Positions 4,226-55,952 of a stretch of 64,000 nt of DNA are shown here, piece after piece. A model generated the notes under the pieces. That model saw nothing but the letters and a program-made list of their open reading frames with translations. It was not told the origin of the DNA and did no database searches. This stretch comes from Lachnospiraceae bacterium (GTDB lineage: Bacteria > Bacillota > Clostridia > Lachnospirales > Lachnospiraceae). Position numbers and translations under genes: made by a program. How positions within the stretch are numbered: position 1 is the stretch's first letter; the number at the start of each line of letters is the position of its first letter. Location: contig JAFVXW010000011.1 in assembly GCA_017500935.1 (NCBI GenBank), positions 215,819 to 279,818 on the forward strand, in the 5' to 3' direction.

Positions 4226-6271
4226 TTACGGATACATCTGCAGAAGCAGTGCGCCGATGTAAGATGCGAAACCGTGGTTCAAACTTGCCAGCATATGTTT
4301 ATGCTCCCAGAGCGTGCCTGTGATATCAGCCATATGACCGAAGAAATCCTTGATTTCTTCTTCCAGCACATCATGCAGGCCCCATTCGTTCAAAAGTTCC
4401 ATACGCATATACATACCCATCAGGGAATTGAGCTTGGGGAAGCCCCATTTCTGCACGCTGGGTTTTAATTCTTCCAAAAGAATCCGGTAAAGTTCCGGAT
4501 AACTCTCACTGTCTGCCACGCCGAAGCGGAATGCATAATGCTGGCAGACTTCGGAAATATCCTCGCACAGGATCAGTTCGTTCTTCTCGTTTCTGACAGA
4601 ATGATCCCGGAAGAACTGTCCGTCAAAGGACATTTCTCTGATGGTCTGGCGGATGCTTTCTGCTTTTTTAAGCAGCTTTTCGTCCTGATACCACTTGCCG
4701 ATCACTTCCAGCATCTCGCTGTAGAGCATATTGCTGGGGTAATTGACATCCTGCCCCCAGTCGTTTGCCTTGGACCATTCAAGAAAATTGTTGGGTGTTC
4801 TTTCCAGCAGACCATATTCATTTTCATACCCTTCAAAATGTGCCAGCAAATCATAGGCTGTTTGATAGAAGCTGTCCACAGAAACTGCTTTGTTGCGATC
4901 TTTGTACTGATCCAGCTCCAGAATAAACCACATCGCCCATTGAGGCATATAAGAACCGCTGATCAAATCTGTCGGATACATGGAAGGCAGCATTCCCCTG
5001 GGTATGGTTTCACAAGTCTGTATCAGGTAATTTTCTACAAAATCATCCTCTACCCACGTCTCCCCGGTAAACGCGTACTCTGCCTGCGCAGTAAAGTAGC
5101 TGTCACAAAGCCATCCGGCTCTTTCTCTGGAGGGGCAATCCATGTAAATGCCCAGAGAATTACATTTGTAAGTTTCCACCGCGGCATCATAAATTTTCTG
5201 CAGCACTTCGTCCTCTGTGTTGGGTCTGGGAATCTCCGGCATGGAATTTCTGCACTTGATCACTTCTGCGCTGTCTAAATCGATGGCGCCTTCCAGCACA
5301 TAGATCGCCCATAACTGGAATCCGCTGATGACGAAGTTGGTAAAATCGACTTTACCGGACATTGCCACACTGAAAGTATTTACGATCTCCCAGTGTTTAT
5401 AGCGAAACTGCCCGTCCACCAGCTTTTCATCAAAGACAAATAAAAGCTTGGTGCCTTCTGCCGCTGTTCCCGTGATATGGAACAGACCTGCCGTGTTCTT
5501 TTTGTTCTTAAACATGGCAAACTGCCCTTTTGCAAGCTTCATGGGCACAGTCTGCGGTTTATCGGAAATGGTATATCCTAACTTTGACACGGTCAGCCAG
5601 GGTGTTTCCGTGATCTCATCCAGCACAAAACCGTTGCGCTGCTCATCAATGCGGTCAATGGCCCCCTGCAGGCTGTCCATCTGCCAGTCATTTTCGATCC
5701 AGCTGTAAGTATCCACACAAATGGCTTTCTCAATGGTCTCCGGCTCCAGATCGGGCATGGGCGCACGTCTCTTCAGATAGATCACATCCAGATCCCGGAT
5801 CTCAATCTCACAGGCCGTATCCGGCAGATGCAGATTCCAGCATTCCGCAAACTGACGCTGGAAAGAATATCTGGTAGTCTTTTGCAGACGGGAGTTGACT
5901 CTGTAACCTGCAAAATCATAACCGGTGGCCGCCAGCACCGTGCCGTCGGCACTCACGATTTCCGCCTGTATAAAACCGGGCTGTTTGACACATTCAAAAT
6001 TGTAGCAGTTATAGCTTGCTGCCTCAATCTCCAACCGATTACTGCCCGCTTCTGCCGCCAGCGCGATCTCATCCACTCTGGCATAACCCTTTGCGGTAGG
6101 GGCAGGTCCGTAATGGATCAGCCTGCCGTTTAACAGCACTTTGTAAAAGCTTGCGCCGGTGAGTTTTAAGAGCAGATTGTCTGCCCCCGTAAACTCTGTA
6201 ACAAACCGGGCCTGAATATTCATTTCATATGCAAGGTCTTTTAACCAGACCGGTTTTGCTTTCAGAAACAT
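4226..6271 (-). CDS. Alpha-L-rhamnosidase-like glycoside hydrolase (GH78 type)
   Basis: About 681 residues with N-terminal beta-sandwich domains and a C-terminal (alpha/alpha)6 barrel. The motif DCPSRERAGW starts at D378 with E383 and matches the catalytic region of GH78, where Asp/Glu residues act in inverting cleavage of rhamnosides. No signal peptide, so it probably acts on imported material. I chose the ATG at 6271 (protein begins MFLKAKPVW) because GGAAAGGAG lies 10 nt upstream. A longer in-frame start at 6358 would run through the 52-bp palindrome array and is unlikely. It follows that array and precedes the GHL6-like gene. GH78 assignment rests on motifs; a related family such as GH106 is less likely. 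Confidence 0.75.
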   Translation of the reverse strand: MFLKAKPVWLKDLAYEMNIQARFVTEFTGADNLLLKLTGASFYKVLLNGRLIHYGPAPTAKGYARVDEIALAAEAGSNRLEIEAASYNCYNFECVKQPGFIQAEIVSADGTVLAATGYDFAGYRVNSRLQKTTRYSFQRQFAECWNLHLPDTACEIEIRDLDVIYLKRRAPMPDLEPETIEKAICVDTYSWIENDWQMDSLQGAIDRIDEQRNGFVLDEITETPWLTVSKLGYTISDKPQTVPMKLAKGQFAMFKNKKNTAGLFHITGTAAEGTKLLFVFDEKLVDGQFRYKHWEIVNTFSVAMSGKVDFTNFVISGFQLWAIYVLEGAIDLDSAEVIKCRNSMPEIPRPNTEDEVLQKIYDAAVETYKCNSLGIYMDCPSRERAGWLCDSYFTAQAEYAFTGETWVEDDFVENYLIQTCETIPRGMLPSMYPTDLISGSYMPQWAMWFILELDQYKDRNKAVSVDSFYQTAYDLLAHFEGYENEYGLLERTPNNFLEWSKANDWGQDVNYPSNMLYSEMLEVIGKWYQDEKLLKKAESIRQTIREMSFDGQFFRDHSVRNEKNELILCEDISEVCQHYAFRFGVADSESYPELYRILLEELKPSVQKWGFPKLNSLMGMYMRMELLNEWGLHDVLEEEIKDFFGHMADITGTLWEHKHMLASLNHGFASYIGALLLQMYP

Positions 6272-6303
6272 ATGCGCACCGCTCCTTTCCGAATTGTGTA
6301 TTT

Positions 6304-6735
6304 CATGCAAATTTAGGTTTTTGGCAAATTTACATGCTTTCTCAAATTGCCAATTCATGCAAATTCCAGTATTTTACTTTCTTGCATGCTCTTAAATACT
6401 GGCGATTCATGAAAATTTTAAATTTTCTCATTTTTGCATGCTTCTATCAATTACCATTTCATGAAAATTTAAGTTTTTTGTTTTTTGAATGCTTTCTTCC
6501 GAACAGCACTGTATGCAAATTTGCCGTTTTCCTGATTTTGCATGATTTATCATTTTGATACTGCATTCAAATTTGCTTTTTTCTTATATTTGCATGCAAT
6601 CTCATTTGCAAGCTACATGCAAATTCCGTTTTTCCACAATTTTGCATGCTCTCCCAATAACCGCAAGCATGCAAATCTCAATTTTTCTTATATTTGCCTG
6701 CCGGAAACCAAATCCCCGGCAGGCAAATTCACATT
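6304..6735. repeat. Tandem array of palindromes, exact 52-bp period, 8 units plus a degenerate ninth
   Basis: Units begin at 6304, 6356, 6408, 6460, 6512, 6564, 6616, 6668 and, degenerate, 6720, always 52 bp apart. Each has a 34-bp palindromic part, left arm CATGCAAATT and right arm TTTTGCATGC, followed by about 18 bp of weakly conserved sequence. The middle of each palindrome is variable but T-rich on the plus strand. Arms differ by 0-2 bases between units. The array fills the gap between the GH36-like stop (6766) and the GH78-like start (6271). 52 bp is five turns of B-DNA, so all units face the same side of the helix. It is not a coding repeat, since 52 is not a multiple of three. Confidence 0.9.
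6692..6728 (-). other. Strong hairpin at the end of the repeat array
   Basis: Thirteen-base perfect arms (6692-6704 and 6716-6728, core TTTGCCTGCCGG) flank an 11-base loop. It forms where unit 8 and the partial unit 9 meet, about 40 nt after the GH36-like stop on the minus strand. No T-run follows on that strand, so it is more likely an mRNA-stabilising or attenuating hairpin than a full terminator. Confidence 0.7.
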
Positions 6736-6765: not shown

Positions 6766-8577
6766 TCATTCCTGCGCAGCAGCGTAGATCGCATCAATAT
6801 CCTCGCAGTATTTGGTCCATACATTGACACGTTTCTGCCAGTCTTCTTCTGTCATCACAACGGTTCTCTTACCGAAGTCTTCGGTCATTTTGTCGATCAG
6901 AGGAGAACCGAAGGTGATGGATTCTTCCATGAAGTTGAGCAGTTCTTCGTGGCTGCCGATACCGCCGCCGTCAGAGTCAATGAGAACGCCGGGGATAGCG
7001 GTGGAGAACAGGTCTGCACGCCATCTCATACAGGAAGACAGGTTGCGCAGTTCTGCCTGCAGGTCATGCAATCTTGCCTGGTCGGTACATTCTGCAAAGT
7101 AAGGGTTGCCGGAGGAGCAGTTGATCAGCGCGTCGGGTTTTATGGATTTTACGGTGTTGTAGATCAGGGACTGCATGCGCTTTAACAGTTCCACACCGTA
7201 TACTTCGGTCTCGAAAATGTAGCACTCAGGATTTCTGGGACGGGTATCTGCATAATCGATCTTGAAGCCGTCACAGTTGAAGCATCCTTCATCGGGAGAA
7301 AGCAGGGTATAGATTGCCTTCTGCAGATATTCTGCATAAGCAGGAGAAGTAGGGTCAGCATGCTGCACAGCGTCTGCATGTCTTGCGCACTGTTCCCACT
7401 GAAGACCTTCTGCATCCCACATCTTGAACCATAACAGAACCTTGCGGCCTTTTGCGTGCTGTTCTTCCACGAATCCGCGCATATCAGGCCATTTTTCCTC
7501 GTCAACGATCAGATCGCCGTAGTTTTTCTGCCACTTGTCATCAATAACGATAACCTTCACGGGAAGGTTTCTTTCTTCGATCTTGTCAACACAACCCTGA
7601 TACAGTTCCTGGGTAGCCAGCTGTTTTGCCTTCTTCCATGCCAGCCATTCGATGTGTTTTAAGTGTGCAACGGACGCATCCTTAAGAGCTTCTTTGTCTT
7701 CAAAGTATTCCTGTCTTGCCTTGCAGTTCTGTTCGCCCCAGCCGCAGAAGAAAGGTCCGCGCCACCAGCGGGGAACATCGGTATATTTAGCGGTATGAAG
7801 AGGCGCGCGCTTGCAGCCGTTGTACTTAAAGTTCCATTCGGTATATGCCTTCATGGCATCCAGTTCATCGGAACCGAAAGTGATCAGCAGATTTGCAGTT
7901 TCCCAGCTGCCGCCTTCGCCTACTTTACGGGGACGGGGATAAGGAACCACAAAGCTGCAGCGGTTTTCAAACAGTTTGTACTGGAATTCGTCGAAATTGT
8001 ATTCGCCGGGTGCCGGACAAAGGCTTACTGCGATAGAGCCTGCAGCTTTTTCGGATACGAAGGGGAAACCAAACATGGGAGGAGCCAGCAGAGTGGAAGT
8101 AATGGTGCTGCTCTCAATGATCTCGCGGTACATTCTCTTCTTGGAGCAATGCAGTGCCAGAGGCAGGGTGTAACCGGATGCTTCATATTCGGTATCATAG
8201 CAGTAAACAACCTTGCCTACAGACTGGAAACCTTCCAGACCGGTGCAGGCATTTTCCAGATCGGGTGCACCGAAATTATAAACATTTTTGCGGGGTTCGC
8301 TTACCTTAGCCTTAAAGCTGATGCCATCTTCTGCAACATCGAGAGTGTAGAGCTTCTTGGCCCAGCGGGTGCTGGCAGTTTCAAACTGGATCACGGTGTG
8401 ACCGTCTTTTTCGCAAACCACTTCTGCTTCCTTCAGGATTCTGCGGTCTTTATCCTCTTCACCCACGTAGATGGTGAGGGGGAACTTAAACCATGTAAGC
8501 CCGTTGTAAGTTACGTGCAGAACATTGTCGATCACTTCCGCTTTGTAAGCAGGGAAATTAAAGGTGATAGGATTCAT
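6766..8577 (-). CDS. GH36-like glycoside hydrolase (alpha-galactosidase/raffinose-synthase type), copy 1
   Basis: 603 residues. A beta-rich N-terminal domain (1-~240) precedes a clan-D-like barrel. VIVIDDKWQ and the tract CDGFKIDYAD place the likely nucleophile at D441. NCSSGNPYF and the downstream Asp of TDQARLHD are in the right place for the acid/base region. No signal peptide. RBS AAAGGAG precedes the ATG. A paralogue of nearly the same length lies at 13676-15484 with the nucleophile at the same residue number. The family acts on alpha-galactosides or transfers galactose, but distant GH36-like members have other specificities, so the substrate is open. The 52-bp array follows immediately. 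Confidence 0.75.
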   Translation of the reverse strand: MNPITFNFPAYKAEVIDNVLHVTYNGLTWFKFPLTIYVGEEDKDRRILKEAEVVCEKDGHTVIQFETASTRWAKKLYTLDVAEDGISFKAKVSEPRKNVYNFGAPDLENACTGLEGFQSVGKVVYCYDTEYEASGYTLPLALHCSKKRMYREIIESSTITSTLLAPPMFGFPFVSEKAAGSIAVSLCPAPGEYNFDEFQYKLFENRCSFVVPYPRPRKVGEGGSWETANLLITFGSDELDAMKAYTEWNFKYNGCKRAPLHTAKYTDVPRWWRGPFFCGWGEQNCKARQEYFEDKEALKDASVAHLKHIEWLAWKKAKQLATQELYQGCVDKIEERNLPVKVIVIDDKWQKNYGDLIVDEEKWPDMRGFVEEQHAKGRKVLLWFKMWDAEGLQWEQCARHADAVQHADPTSPAYAEYLQKAIYTLLSPDEGCFNCDGFKIDYADTRPRNPECYIFETEVYGVELLKRMQSLIYNTVKSIKPDALINCSSGNPYFAECTDQARLHDLQAELRNLSSCMRWRADLFSTAIPGVLIDSDGGGIGSHEELLNFMEESITFGSPLIDKMTEDFGKRTVVMTEEDWQKRVNVWTKYCEDIDAIYAAAQE

Positions 8578-20662: not shown

Positions 20663-21592
20663 TTAGAAGATACTTTCATCTCTGACTCTCTTGGACAGAT
20701 TGTTGACAATAAGCAGCAGCATGATGGAGATCAGGGATTTTGACATACCGATAACAGTACCGTAGGAGTAATCGGATTTTAACAGGGTTGCACGGTATAC
20801 ATACAGGTCGATGGTTTCGATGTTATTCTTTACAACGGTATTATAGAAGTTCAGATACTGGTCAAGTCCGCTGTTTACGAAGCTGGATACCTGCAGCAGC
20901 ATCAATACGATAAAGGTAGGCATCAGGGAGGGAATGGTTATGTAACGGATCCGCTGCATACGGGATGCGCCGTCGATCTCGGCTGCCTCAAACTGTTCTC
21001 TGTCGATACCGGCGATCGCTGCCAGGTAAACGATAGAACTCCATCCCAGACCTTTCCAAAGCCCCAAAGCAGTCTGGAACCAATATACTGCATCCTGATC
21101 TGCGATCAGACTGAAAGGTTCCTTGATCCATCCAAAATCCATCAGCACTGCAGAAACCTTACCGTCAAAGGAGAAAAACTGGAAAGCCAGCGCATACACG
21201 ATAACCCAGCTTACAAAGTGGGGGAAAGTGGTCAGCGTCTGGATCAGACGTTTCAATTTGCTGCTCCGTACTTCGTTCAGCGCAATTGCCAGAACCATGG
21301 AAAGCGGTGCTGTCAGATACCCCAGCAGTGCAAAGACCGCGGTATTTTTCATAACACGGAGCATGTTTTTGGAATCTTCCATTAAGATCTTAAAATTGTC
21401 CAGTCCAACAAAAGGTGTCTTGCTTAACGGAATACCGGGTTTGTAATTCATAAAGCCGATGATCCATCCTGCAAGGGGCACATAGGAAAACATAATAACA
21501 AATACGATACCGGGCAGCAGGTAAAGCAGAAGCTTATAGTTTTTCTTGATTGGTTTTACATTCGGGTTTTTCTCTTTTTTTGCGACAGCCAT
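20663..21592 (-). CDS. Sugar ABC transporter permease (LplB-like)
   Basis: 309 residues. A Lys-rich cytoplasmic N terminus precedes six predicted membrane helices (LLLYLLPGIVFVIMFSYVPL first). The EAA loop is EAAEIDGASRMQRIRYI. This is the LplB/MalF-type partner of the next permease. It is the first gene of the importer operon, with RBS AAGGGGG before ATG and about 180 bases of AT-rich leader upstream. Like other LplB proteins it lacks the large periplasmic loop seen in enterobacterial MalF. Confidence 0.9.
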   Translation of the reverse strand: MAVAKKEKNPNVKPIKKNYKLLLYLLPGIVFVIMFSYVPLAGWIIGFMNYKPGIPLSKTPFVGLDNFKILMEDSKNMLRVMKNTAVFALLGYLTAPLSMVLAIALNEVRSSKLKRLIQTLTTFPHFVSWVIVYALAFQFFSFDGKVSAVLMDFGWIKEPFSLIADQDAVYWFQTALGLWKGLGWSSIVYLAAIAGIDREQFEAAEIDGASRMQRIRYITIPSLMPTFIVLMLLQVSSFVNSGLDQYLNFYNTVVKNNIETIDLYVYRATLLKSDYSYGTVIGMSKSLISIMLLLIVNNLSKRVRDESIF

Positions 21593-21765: not shown

Positions 21766-21966
21766 TGTACTTACTTCCTGCCTGTCTGCGTTTTTTTAGT
21801 ATGTTTGGTTTCTGTTTTTTTATTATTTTTGTACTTTTTTATGGTAAATGGGATTTTTTTATGATAATTATTTATTATAGATGAGTTGTTTTTTGATTTT
21901 GCGCGTTTGACTGTATGTTTGATCCGACCTTTAATCAAGGTGAAATTGTTAAAAAGAAAGCGATAA

Positions 21967-22127
21967 CAAGCAAGATGAAAGTTTTGGGGTCTGATGCTTG
22001 TTGTTGATGCATAGGTGATGGAATTTCCAACAAGCACACAAGCCTTTTTCCGCTCTGATGCTTGTCAACAACGTATAGAGGCGGAATTTCCAACAAGCAC
22101 GCAAGCCTTTTTCCACTCTGATGCTTG
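21967..22127. repeat. Three 34-bp palindromic units at 63-64 bp spacing
   Basis: Units at 21967-22000, 22031-22064 and 22094-22127 are each exactly 34 bp, with arms CAAGCA and TGCTTG (often extended to ACAAGCA/TGCTTGTT). Units 2 and 3 are nearly identical; unit 1 differs in its middle. The spacers of 29-30 bp share GGAATTTCC. The array lies 375-535 bp upstream of the importer operon in a gene-free tract. Short open frames across it (repeating DKHQSGKRL-like peptides) are products of the repeat and not convincing genes. Confidence 0.85.
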
Positions 22128-22185
22128 TCAATGACATGCGGCGGGGAGTGGTTGGCATCATACAAACCGGAAAAGATACATAGAC

Positions 22186-22310: not shown

Positions 22311-22341
22311 TTGTCAATCATTTTATGTTATGTCGTATTAT
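22311..22341 (+). promoter_or_regulatory. Candidate promoter for the GH43 gene
   Basis: TTGTCA (22311-22316), a slightly long 19-bp spacer and TATTAT (22336-22341) lie about 30 nt before the GH43 start. The rest of 22233-22310 shows nothing I can name. Confidence 0.35.
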
Positions 22342-22370
22342 TTCTGTTTCAAAACCGGAAAGGAGTTCTC

Positions 22371-23264
22371 ATGATCATCACAAACATCACCGGGATCGGC
22401 GACCCGCAGATTCTGCTTTATGAAGATACTTATTATTGCTATGCCACAAGCTGGCATGACGGTTTCGCAGTCTGGAGCAGCAAAGATCTGATCCATTGGA
22501 GTAAGCCAAAGCTTGCCCTGGATGCTTCTGTCCATTGGGGTAACGGATGCTTTTGGGCACCGGAGGTAGTTTTCCACAATGGCAGCTTTATCATGCACTA
22601 TTCTGCCCGCTGGGGCAAACCCGACACGCTGCGGATGGGTGTGGCTGTCAGCAGCCATCCGGAAGGTCCCTTTGCCGATGTTACCGGGCAGCCCATGTTT
22701 GATCCGGGCCATTCTGTCATTGACGGTTCCATACTGCGCTGGCAGGGCAGAAACTACTTATATTATTCCAAAGACTGCAGCACCAATCTCGTTGATGGTC
22801 ATCCAACCAGTCAGGTCTATGTTGTGGAACTGGACGAAACGCTCACCCGCCCCATTGGCGAACACAAGCTGATGACTACTCCCGAATTTGCATGGGAACG
22901 CCTGAGTGCGCCCAAACATCCGCTCTGGAACGAAGGCCCCAATGTGATCGAGTGGAACGGCAAGCTGATCATGAACTATTCTGCCAACCATTACGCTTCC
23001 AACGACTATGCGATCTGCATTGCGCAAAGCGAACATCCGGAAGGGCCCTGGATAAAGCATGACTGTGCCAATCCGGTGCTTTCCTGCCGCGAGGATCTTT
23101 TCGGTGCGGGACACAATGCTTTCTTCTATGATAAGGAAGGCGTTTTAAGAACCGCCTTCCATGTGCAGACTGATCCGGCACATCCAAGCGGTGACAGACG
23201 GGTGTGTATCGGAACGGTTGTATTTAAGGAAGCGGACGGAGTTGTGTATCAGGAAATCATATAA
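22371..23264 (+). CDS. Glycoside hydrolase family 43 (arabinan/xylan-side-chain type)
   Basis: 297 residues forming a five-bladed propeller. The GH43 triad is visible: D11 in GIGDPQI (base), D118 in VIDGS (pKa modulator) and E188 in WNEGPNV (acid). No signal peptide, so it acts on imported arabino- or xylo-oligosaccharides. I start at the ATG at 22371 because GGAAAGGAG is 5 nt upstream; a longer frame from 22311 overlaps the promoter. It is on the plus strand, divergent from the importer operon, and ends in a good terminator. Confidence 0.85.
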   Translation: MIITNITGIGDPQILLYEDTYYCYATSWHDGFAVWSSKDLIHWSKPKLALDASVHWGNGCFWAPEVVFHNGSFIMHYSARWGKPDTLRMGVAVSSHPEGPFADVTGQPMFDPGHSVIDGSILRWQGRNYLYYSKDCSTNLVDGHPTSQVYVVELDETLTRPIGEHKLMTTPEFAWERLSAPKHPLWNEGPNVIEWNGKLIMNYSANHYASNDYAICIAQSEHPEGPWIKHDCANPVLSCREDLFGAGHNAFFYDKEGVLRTAFHVQTDPAHPSGDRRVCIGTVVFKEADGVVYQEII

Positions 23265-55689: not shown

Positions 55690-55765
55690 GTTACTCCTCC
55701 TCAAGTTTTGCGTCTTTCGTAAAGCGCGTACTTTGCGCGCCTGATATGGCAACTATAACTCTACT

Positions 55766-55793
55766 ATTATACCATGCAAAAAATTCTTTGCAA
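55766..55793 (-). promoter_or_regulatory. glgP promoter
   Basis: TTGCAA (55788-55793), 16 bp and a consensus TATAAT (55766-55771) on the minus strand. The -35 box is part of an inverted repeat TTGCAAAGAATTTTTTGCA that could be a regulator site. The rest of 55690-55952 shows no gene. Confidence 0.65.
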
Positions 55794-55952
55794 CAGACGA
55801 ATTGCCAATTTTCGATATGTTTTTTAAGCATTATGCGTAAAAAGTGTCTATTTTTCTGCTAAAACAGCGGTTTTTCCGCCTGAGGCTTCAGACTCTTTGG
55901 ATAAATTCAGGTCTATGCATCAAAAATATGTCCCCGGAATCTGTCCGTATGC

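Follow-up and report, generated by a model that had tools for sequence, protein, structure and literature searches.

A palindrome array between two glycosidase genes is probably one copy of a genome-wide family of helically phased intergenic repeats

The stretch of 64,000 nucleotides analysed here, which we call the window, comes from the draft genome (3.56 Mb, 87 contigs) of a Lachnospiraceae bacterium. Two co-directional genes on its minus strand adjoin a palindrome array: a GH31-like upstream gene (6766-8577) with a match to the GH31 TIM barrel (6e-9), and a rhamnosidase-like downstream gene (4226-6271) with a match to Bac_rhamnosid6H (1.3e-13), matches that fit the glycosidase identity first assigned to both. 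A longer form of the downstream ORF, which reaches to 6358 and starts inside the array, is probably an over-extended start, and the gap from the stop codon at 6766 to the probable start codon at 6271 is mostly taken up by the array. The array itself (6303..6727, not assigned to a strand, like the features within it) comprises eight dyads spaced 52 bp apart, followed by a ninth half-site, with palindromes at 6303..6337, 6355..6389, 6407..6441, 6459..6492, 6511..6545, 6563..6597, 6615..6649, and 6667..6701, and the ninth left half-site beginning at 6719. Each unit approximates GCANNCAAA-N17-TTTGNNTGC (35 bp) followed by a 17-bp linker, and palindromes 6 and 8 match the seven fixed positions in both half-sites. 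In palindrome 4 the right half-site comes 1 bp early, 25 rather than 26 bp from the left one, an offset that is cancelled by an 18-bp linker that puts the fifth unit back in register. An outward hairpin (6692..6728), with 13-bp arms at 6692-6704 and 6716-6728, is made up of the ninth half-site and the right half-site of palindrome 8. It lies just past the point where the upstream gene stops, and on the transcribed strand it is not followed by a T-run.

The palindrome array with a 52-bp period that the original prediction placed between these glycosidase genes is real. Identity at lag 52 over 6300-6735 was 0.596, compared to 0.292 +/- 0.024 in 2000 dinucleotide shuffles (z 12.8), and the shuffle maximum at any of the lags scanned, 20 to 119, was 0.406. 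The array contains 18 half-sites with at most one mismatch in seven positions, and shuffled sequences contained a mean of 5.7 and a maximum of 14 (n=1000). Assembly error is an unlikely source of the array because its unit recurs on many contigs with both 62-bp and 52-bp periods. We found no match at gathering score when the window was searched against Rfam, and we rejected a CRISPR array as an identification, as the repeats here are degenerate half-sites recurring at many loci rather than near-identical repeats. At a threshold of E 1e-100, no genus-mate yields a homologue of the downstream gene, and there is therefore no empty site with which the window array could be compared.

A search of the own genome with the window array recovered similar stretches on other contigs, and the dyad pattern GCANNCAAA-N17-TTTGNNTGC, allowing at most one mismatch, occurs at 67 sites in this genome compared to 1 for a reversed control. 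We read 22 loci with at least one dyad each (the window, L009-L017, L019-L021, and L025-L033), a lower bound for the genome; one further BLAST match, L018, is not an array and was left out of all counts. The original prediction had set its array apart from a unit scattered over many sites without a fixed period; the unit is indeed found at many sites, but its periods are fixed. At 15 of the 21 loci outside the window we searched 30 neighbouring proteins, 29 of which had a Pfam match, and these include a purine phosphorylase, a PHP protein, an amidase, an iron hydrogenase, a glutamine synthetase, a pyruvate kinase, and a germination protein. With the window counted, the neighbours at the 16 searched loci are unrelated and have no common theme, and no transposase was detected among the flanking proteins searched at these loci. 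The location between two glycosidase genes had invited a reading of the array as an operator for a regulator of that operon, or as a decoy or an expression-ratio element specific to it. Because the unit is genome-wide and its neighbours are unrelated where searched, an operator for the glycosidase operon is not the explanation, and we regard this reading as very improbable; the decoy and expression-ratio variants are likewise not supported.

Two other rows of sites in the own genome have a different make-up. At 21965-22150 of the window, an unrelated row of palindromes with AACAAGCA...TGCTTGTT units at 63-64 bp steps lies between divergent ORFs, one permease-like (20663-21592, minus strand) and one at 22311-23264 (plus strand), and is perhaps a true operator array. 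A second locus (L164:4327-4620) carries five ACATGTAC-type units with a 63-64 bp period, apparently also between divergent ORFs, with a half-site and inner spacing unlike those of the main family. Separately, L161:2311-2590 holds a dense cluster of TTATCCACA-like sequences, which look like DnaA boxes and perhaps the chromosome origin.

To describe the geometry of the family, we took a census of distances between half-sites (at most one mismatch in seven) in 20 arrays with 224 half-sites, making no use of the unit registers set by eye. Facing, or inward, half-sites are separated by 26 bp in 66 cases, by 27 in 8, and by 25 in 2, and back-to-back, or outward, half-sites lie 26 bp apart in 14 cases, 27 in 10, 36 in 36, and 37 in 6. 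An inward distance of 59 bp occurs 7 times and is probably 62 minus 3, since GCATGC is its own complement; all remaining values occur at most 3 times, and the shuffle mean is 0.01 per distance. Of 28 exact outward pairs found genome-wide, 26 have a gap of 17, 18, 27, or 28, although 30 lengths (10-39) were allowed, and the reversed control gave a single pair. An inward distance of 26 bp combined with outward distances of 26/27 or 36/37 bp places dyads 52/53 or 62/63 bp apart, and the dyad spacings are thus whole helical turns, five (52/53 bp) or six (62/63 bp). Of the 91 linkers in 18 arrays, 27 come from periods of 52-54 bp and 64 from periods of 60-63 bp. The unit, curvature, and period statistics for these 18 arrays exclude two single palindromes (L028 and L033) and two loci with two units (L029 and L030); their unit registers were set by eye, with degenerate units placed by spacing. 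Several arrays are mirror-symmetric in their spacings or nearly so, namely L010 (62,62,53,62,62), L012 (62,62,62,53,62,62), L017 (62,62,53,63,62,62), and L026 (62,62,52,62,62). L011, L020, and L031 are not mirror-symmetric, and the window array, with all steps at 52, is the plainest.

The exact pattern of the own genome (type A) is absent from all 12 genus-mates, but one of them, G005, carries related geometry in other sequences. Three of its arrays (L070, L167, and L168; A'-type) have GCATGTAAA-type half-sites and a period of mostly 62/63 bp. A second family in the same genome, type B, has the half-site GGGGTAT within a 228-bp repeat with terminal inverted repeats. Across 30 type B loci, 75 pairs of facing half-sites lie at the expected distance and none at one bp more or less, and in 6 of the 7 elements read there are four dyads at spacings of 70/71-52-71. 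The claim that spacing, in whole helical turns, has been kept over sequence is therefore strengthened, as the alternatives to 52 bp are 62/63 bp (six turns) and, in the genus-mate, 70-71 bp (seven turns of ~10.2 bp).

Runs of A or T in the arrays are commonest at the dyad centre and rise again at distances of about 10, 21, 31, and 41 bp from it, and the dyad centre is 99% A+T (109 units) with no fixed sequence. When periods of 8-14 bp were scanned, the best A-tract period was 10.25-10.45 bp in 17 of 17 own arrays tested outside the window, compared to 5 of 43 control intergenic regions with a best period of 10.2-10.5 (Fisher 7e-11). In G005, the best period was 10.4-10.5 in three of three A'-type arrays and 10.2-10.25 in six of six type B elements (L064 was dropped from this count), whose 71-52-71 spacings fit 19 turns of 10.2 bp. 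At the best period, A-tract strength exceeds that of controls only moderately (0.29-0.60, compared to a control median of 0.35), and it is the shared period rather than the strength that sets the arrays apart. Linkers of the 62-bp type examined alone show a phase coherence at 10.4 bp of 0.41, compared to a maximum of 0.25 in 400 shuffles, with tract peaks 21, 31-32, and 41 bp from the dyad, and the sixth harmonic of the 62-bp unit reaches 9.0, with the next at 3.9. Linkers of the 52-bp type alone showed no significant phasing (P 0.20 and 0.15). Using a wedge model (nominal wedge values; 40-60 shuffles per sequence), we obtained a predicted curvature z of at least 2.0 in 17 of 18 own arrays, compared to 13% of 46 controls, and in 7 of 7 type B elements (6 of 7 with AA wedges only). 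The window array has a predicted curvature z of -0.6, that is, none, and a best A-tract period of 8.7 bp, with 10.4 second yet above all 500 shuffles; the case for phasing therefore comes from the family and not from the window copy. As a separate observation, an intergenic segment at 55752-55952 of the window, upstream of an 848-aa ORF on the minus strand, has a very high predicted curvature (z 16).

The arrays show some preference in gene context. By automatic ORF calling, 10 of the 22 loci lie between convergent genes, 9 between co-directional genes, and 3 between divergent genes. The convergent share of 10/22 compares to 13/80 for gaps of at least 150 bp (P 0.006) and to 8/31 for gaps of at least 250 bp (P 0.12). 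Reading by eye assigned L027 as divergent and L029 and L030 as co-directional, giving two divergent loci instead of three. This convergent tendency, together with regular intergenic palindromes in alternating orientation and phased AT tracts, is what would be expected of a topology site resembling BIME-2, at which gyrase or a DNA-wrapping nucleoid protein would relieve or insulate supercoils between genes. The analogy draws on E. coli, where the reported gyrase motif is symmetric, spans 130 bp, and has arms with a 10.75-bp period, and where BIME-2 elements are enriched for gyrase sites (PMC6379681). The period here is 10.2-10.5 rather than 10.75 bp, however, and the genes flanking the window copy are co-directional, with no curvature predicted for the copy itself. 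We hold such a topology site to be unlikely, if worth keeping in mind.

The original prediction had also raised the prospect of a chain of hairpins in RNA, and an element of this kind, stabilising the upstream mRNA or terminating transcription, could account for the strong predicted RNA folding of both strands of the window array (fold-energy z -6.5 and -6.2), although any row of palindromes would be expected to fold well. The MFE structures of the window do not, however, form a regular hairpin chain. Across the family, the two arms share their variable dinucleotide in 32 of 66 facing pairs, where 24.6 would be expected (P 0.01), and same-orientation neighbours share it in 54 of 122 cases, where 36 would be expected (reached in 0 of 5000 shuffles). 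Arms of one dyad thus agree no better than neighbouring half-sites do, and compensation specific to the arms is absent. The loop keeps a length near 17 nt but, apart from its A/T centre, varies freely in sequence, and this, with the lack of arm compensation, points to recognition of duplex DNA. Part of the RNA claim survives at the array edges: where they adjoin the 3' end of a gene, the outermost palindromes pair better between their arms than the rest (9.24 of 12, n=25, compared to 7.80, n=84; P 0.001), and 6 of these 25 combine at least 5 T in the next 9 nt with all 12 arm positions paired or nearly so. Judged by sequence, those at the left of L011, both ends of L025, and the right of L026, L020, and L032 look like intrinsic terminators. 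T-runs after palindromes show no overall enrichment (P 0.46), and the two (by eye) or three (automatic) loci between divergent genes fit poorly with an RNA role. An RNA element as the general explanation therefore seems to us rather improbable.

Sequence outside the half-sites indicates how the copies are related. We compared arrays at positions outside the half-sites, where the background agreement is a mean of 36% over 2161 comparisons, and several pairs agree above this level: L016 with L021 (162 of 238 positions), L027 in reverse complement with L021 (138 of 209), L015 with L021 (124 of 193), and L017 with L013 in reverse complement (129 of 227). At least some arrays are thus copies at different places. 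The window array agrees with itself shifted by one unit at 113 of 221 positions (log10 P -5.5), and its best agreement with another array (log10 P -3.7) is not significant among the 2161 comparisons; it is closer to its own one-unit shift than to any of the other arrays, a pattern that tandem amplification would be expected to leave. With all its steps at 52 bp, the window copy resembles a family member that was tandemly amplified or is decaying. Several type A elements are dyad-symmetric as wholes, and the dispersed homologous copies have no ORF of their own (by inspection), as is characteristic of MITEs. Type B has terminal inverted repeats, with ends GGGGTATATAC...GTATATACCCC and variants of these, and its near-full-length copies are 71-86% identical to the query. 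Aligned flanks of seven type B copies gave no clear target-site duplication, and the ends have no unique delimitation. Type B lies between convergent genes at 5 of 17 loci, which is no preference (L187, L189, L196, and L204 of the 21 loci were dropped, as their ends were not found automatically).

Both families are narrowly distributed. Type B has 41 matches in G005, some overlapping, and none in the other 12 genus genomes, own genome included. With the pattern GCAWGYAAA-N17-TTTRCWTGC (at most one mismatch) in 395 genomes, we found 40 matches in the own genome and 14 in G005, while among the other 393 genomes 20 have 1 or 2, for a total of 24 matches compared to 8 for the reversed control. Viral contigs gave no match to the array pattern. 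A pattern of three half-sites gave three matches in a collection of genome contigs that may omit the own genome, all with a gap of 22, which is outside the phased set; two of them are one stretch in two Yaniella genomes, and they look like chance matches, perhaps in coding sequence. De novo screens of stretches from six genus-mates (G001, G003, and G007, 200 kb each; G011, 178 kb; G012, 138 kb; and G006, 120 kb without N), with G002, G004, and G008-G010 left out, detected no dyad row in samples of a size that, at the match density of the 395-genome search, could miss sparse families. A CRISPR-like array with a 66-67 bp period is present in G007 (L107:13910-15850).

In two of the screened genus-mates we found ordinary MITE-like repeats whose sequence is conserved. 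In G003 (L217 and L222-L225; also between the glutamine synthetase III gene and tRNA-Gln in L039) this is a dispersed inverted repeat with GAAAAACGC arms 57-63 bp apart. In G006 (L229:2947, L232:19060, and L234:1271 and 3816) the repeat has ends like GTTCAGCC...GGCTGAAC and holds one palindrome of 35 bp in total length (4 exact sites, 6 with a mismatch), a length that is probably a coincidence. The presence of such ordinary repeats in G003 and G006 makes a plain mobile-repeat origin likelier. The gap between the glutamine synthetase III gene and tRNA-Gln differs between species: it holds a type B copy in G005, an array and a convergent aldolase gene in the own genome, and an unrelated repeat in G003, whereas in G006, G008, and G009 the tRNA lies only 118-191 bp after the glutamine synthetase III gene (the tRNA was called in L034, L035, L042, L043, and L045). 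The gap is a possible insertion hot spot (L034, L035, and L039, compared to L042, L043, and L045).

These observations bear on the possibility that the family is a selfish MITE-like repeat, with half-sites bound by a transposase acting in trans and a spacing that reflects a requirement of transposition, free of any host function. Homology between copies outside the half-sites, the terminal inverted repeats and sequence identity of type B, the occupied and short versions of the glutamine synthetase III/tRNA-Gln gap, and the species restriction of the arrays alongside ordinary MITE-like repeats in genus-mates are all consistent with it. Against this, no transposase is found among the proteins flanking the 16 searched loci, the loops and linkers of type A are near chance agreement (36%) while spacing and half-sites are kept, which differs from a dead repeat, and A-tract phasing outlasts sequence divergence. 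We weigh a purely selfish repeat as a serious possibility that falls somewhat short of being the probable one. A RAYT/REP origin was tried and rejected, as PF01797 (Y1 transposase/RAYT) has no match in either the own genome or G005; the same search was positive in 5 of 14 control genomes and in 4 of the 13 genus genomes (G007, G008, G010, and G011).

Taken together, the evidence favours a role in DNA bending or in organising the chromosome, or else a mobile repeat, over a switch dedicated to a single operon. We think it probable that the window array is one copy of a genome-wide, BIME/MITE-like interspersed family whose members are phased sites for a dimeric DNA-binding or DNA-bending protein. 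Each dyad consists of two degenerate 9-bp half-sites (GCANNCAAA) that face each other nearly always exactly 26 bp apart, and in the mechanism we propose these would be read in double-stranded DNA by a putative dimeric, sequence-specific protein. Bound dimers would be aligned along the same face of a DNA that is bent or bendable, and could form a coiled nucleoprotein segment between genes that may hold or relieve supercoils. Copies might have spread as non-autonomous MITE/BIME-like repeats, with the host using or tolerating them near the ends of genes, where intrinsic termination could fall to some of the outermost palindromes. A more specific version, in which the family is an architectural element that forms intergenic coils and whose dimer half-site changes between species while the geometry is kept (26 bp; five, six, or seven turns), is a tentative proposal that we consider doubtful at present; if true, the nucleoid of this lineage would contain a module comparable to a nucleosome or an insulator.

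Palindromic intergenic repeats are usually explained as by-products of transposases that fold as single strands. The constraint observed here falls on the geometry of the double helix, with whole-turn spacing differences and in-phase A-tracts, and two species keep this geometry with different recognition sequences. The arrays also offer a handle for pulling down the putative nucleoid or transposition protein.

Literature searches returned no description of this array family among the matches listed, and of the matching passages in PMC12306157 one treats Bacillota and none the family. Phased A-tracts are reported to be statistically linked to nucleoid proteins in prokaryotic genomes (PMC3940949), and the arrays resemble such DNA in having A-tracts in helical phase, but here the tracts lie in discrete repeats that also bear paired, sequence-specific half-sites. 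BIME-2/REP arrays, for which binding of gyrase and other proteins is reported (PMC2817692, PMC6379681), share with our arrays an extragenic location, regular spacing, alternating orientation, many copies, and restriction to a species. They differ in that the own genome and G005 have no Y1/RAYT transposase, in having a conserved REP stem where we find degenerate 9-bp half-sites 26 bp apart, and in that the loops and linkers of our arrays are hardly conserved and the dyads lie whole turns apart on phased A-tracts. The foot of the REP stem is described as carrying a GTAG or CGTC tag (PMC3733652), and the consensus of positions -8 to -1 over 129 half-sites shows neither; membership in the REP/BIME class fails because of the transposase and the tag. 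MITEs such as BOX, RUP, and Nezha are likewise described as short, dispersed, intergenic, and strongly folding, with modular inner repeats (PMC3049150). In our family, by contrast, the whole array is built of dyads of equal geometry, and its versions in different species share geometry and not sequence; a transposase matching MITE-like mobility is missing among the flanking proteins searched. By analogy, BIME-2 arrays would be the nearest functional counterpart of the family, and MITEs such as BOX the nearest evolutionary one.
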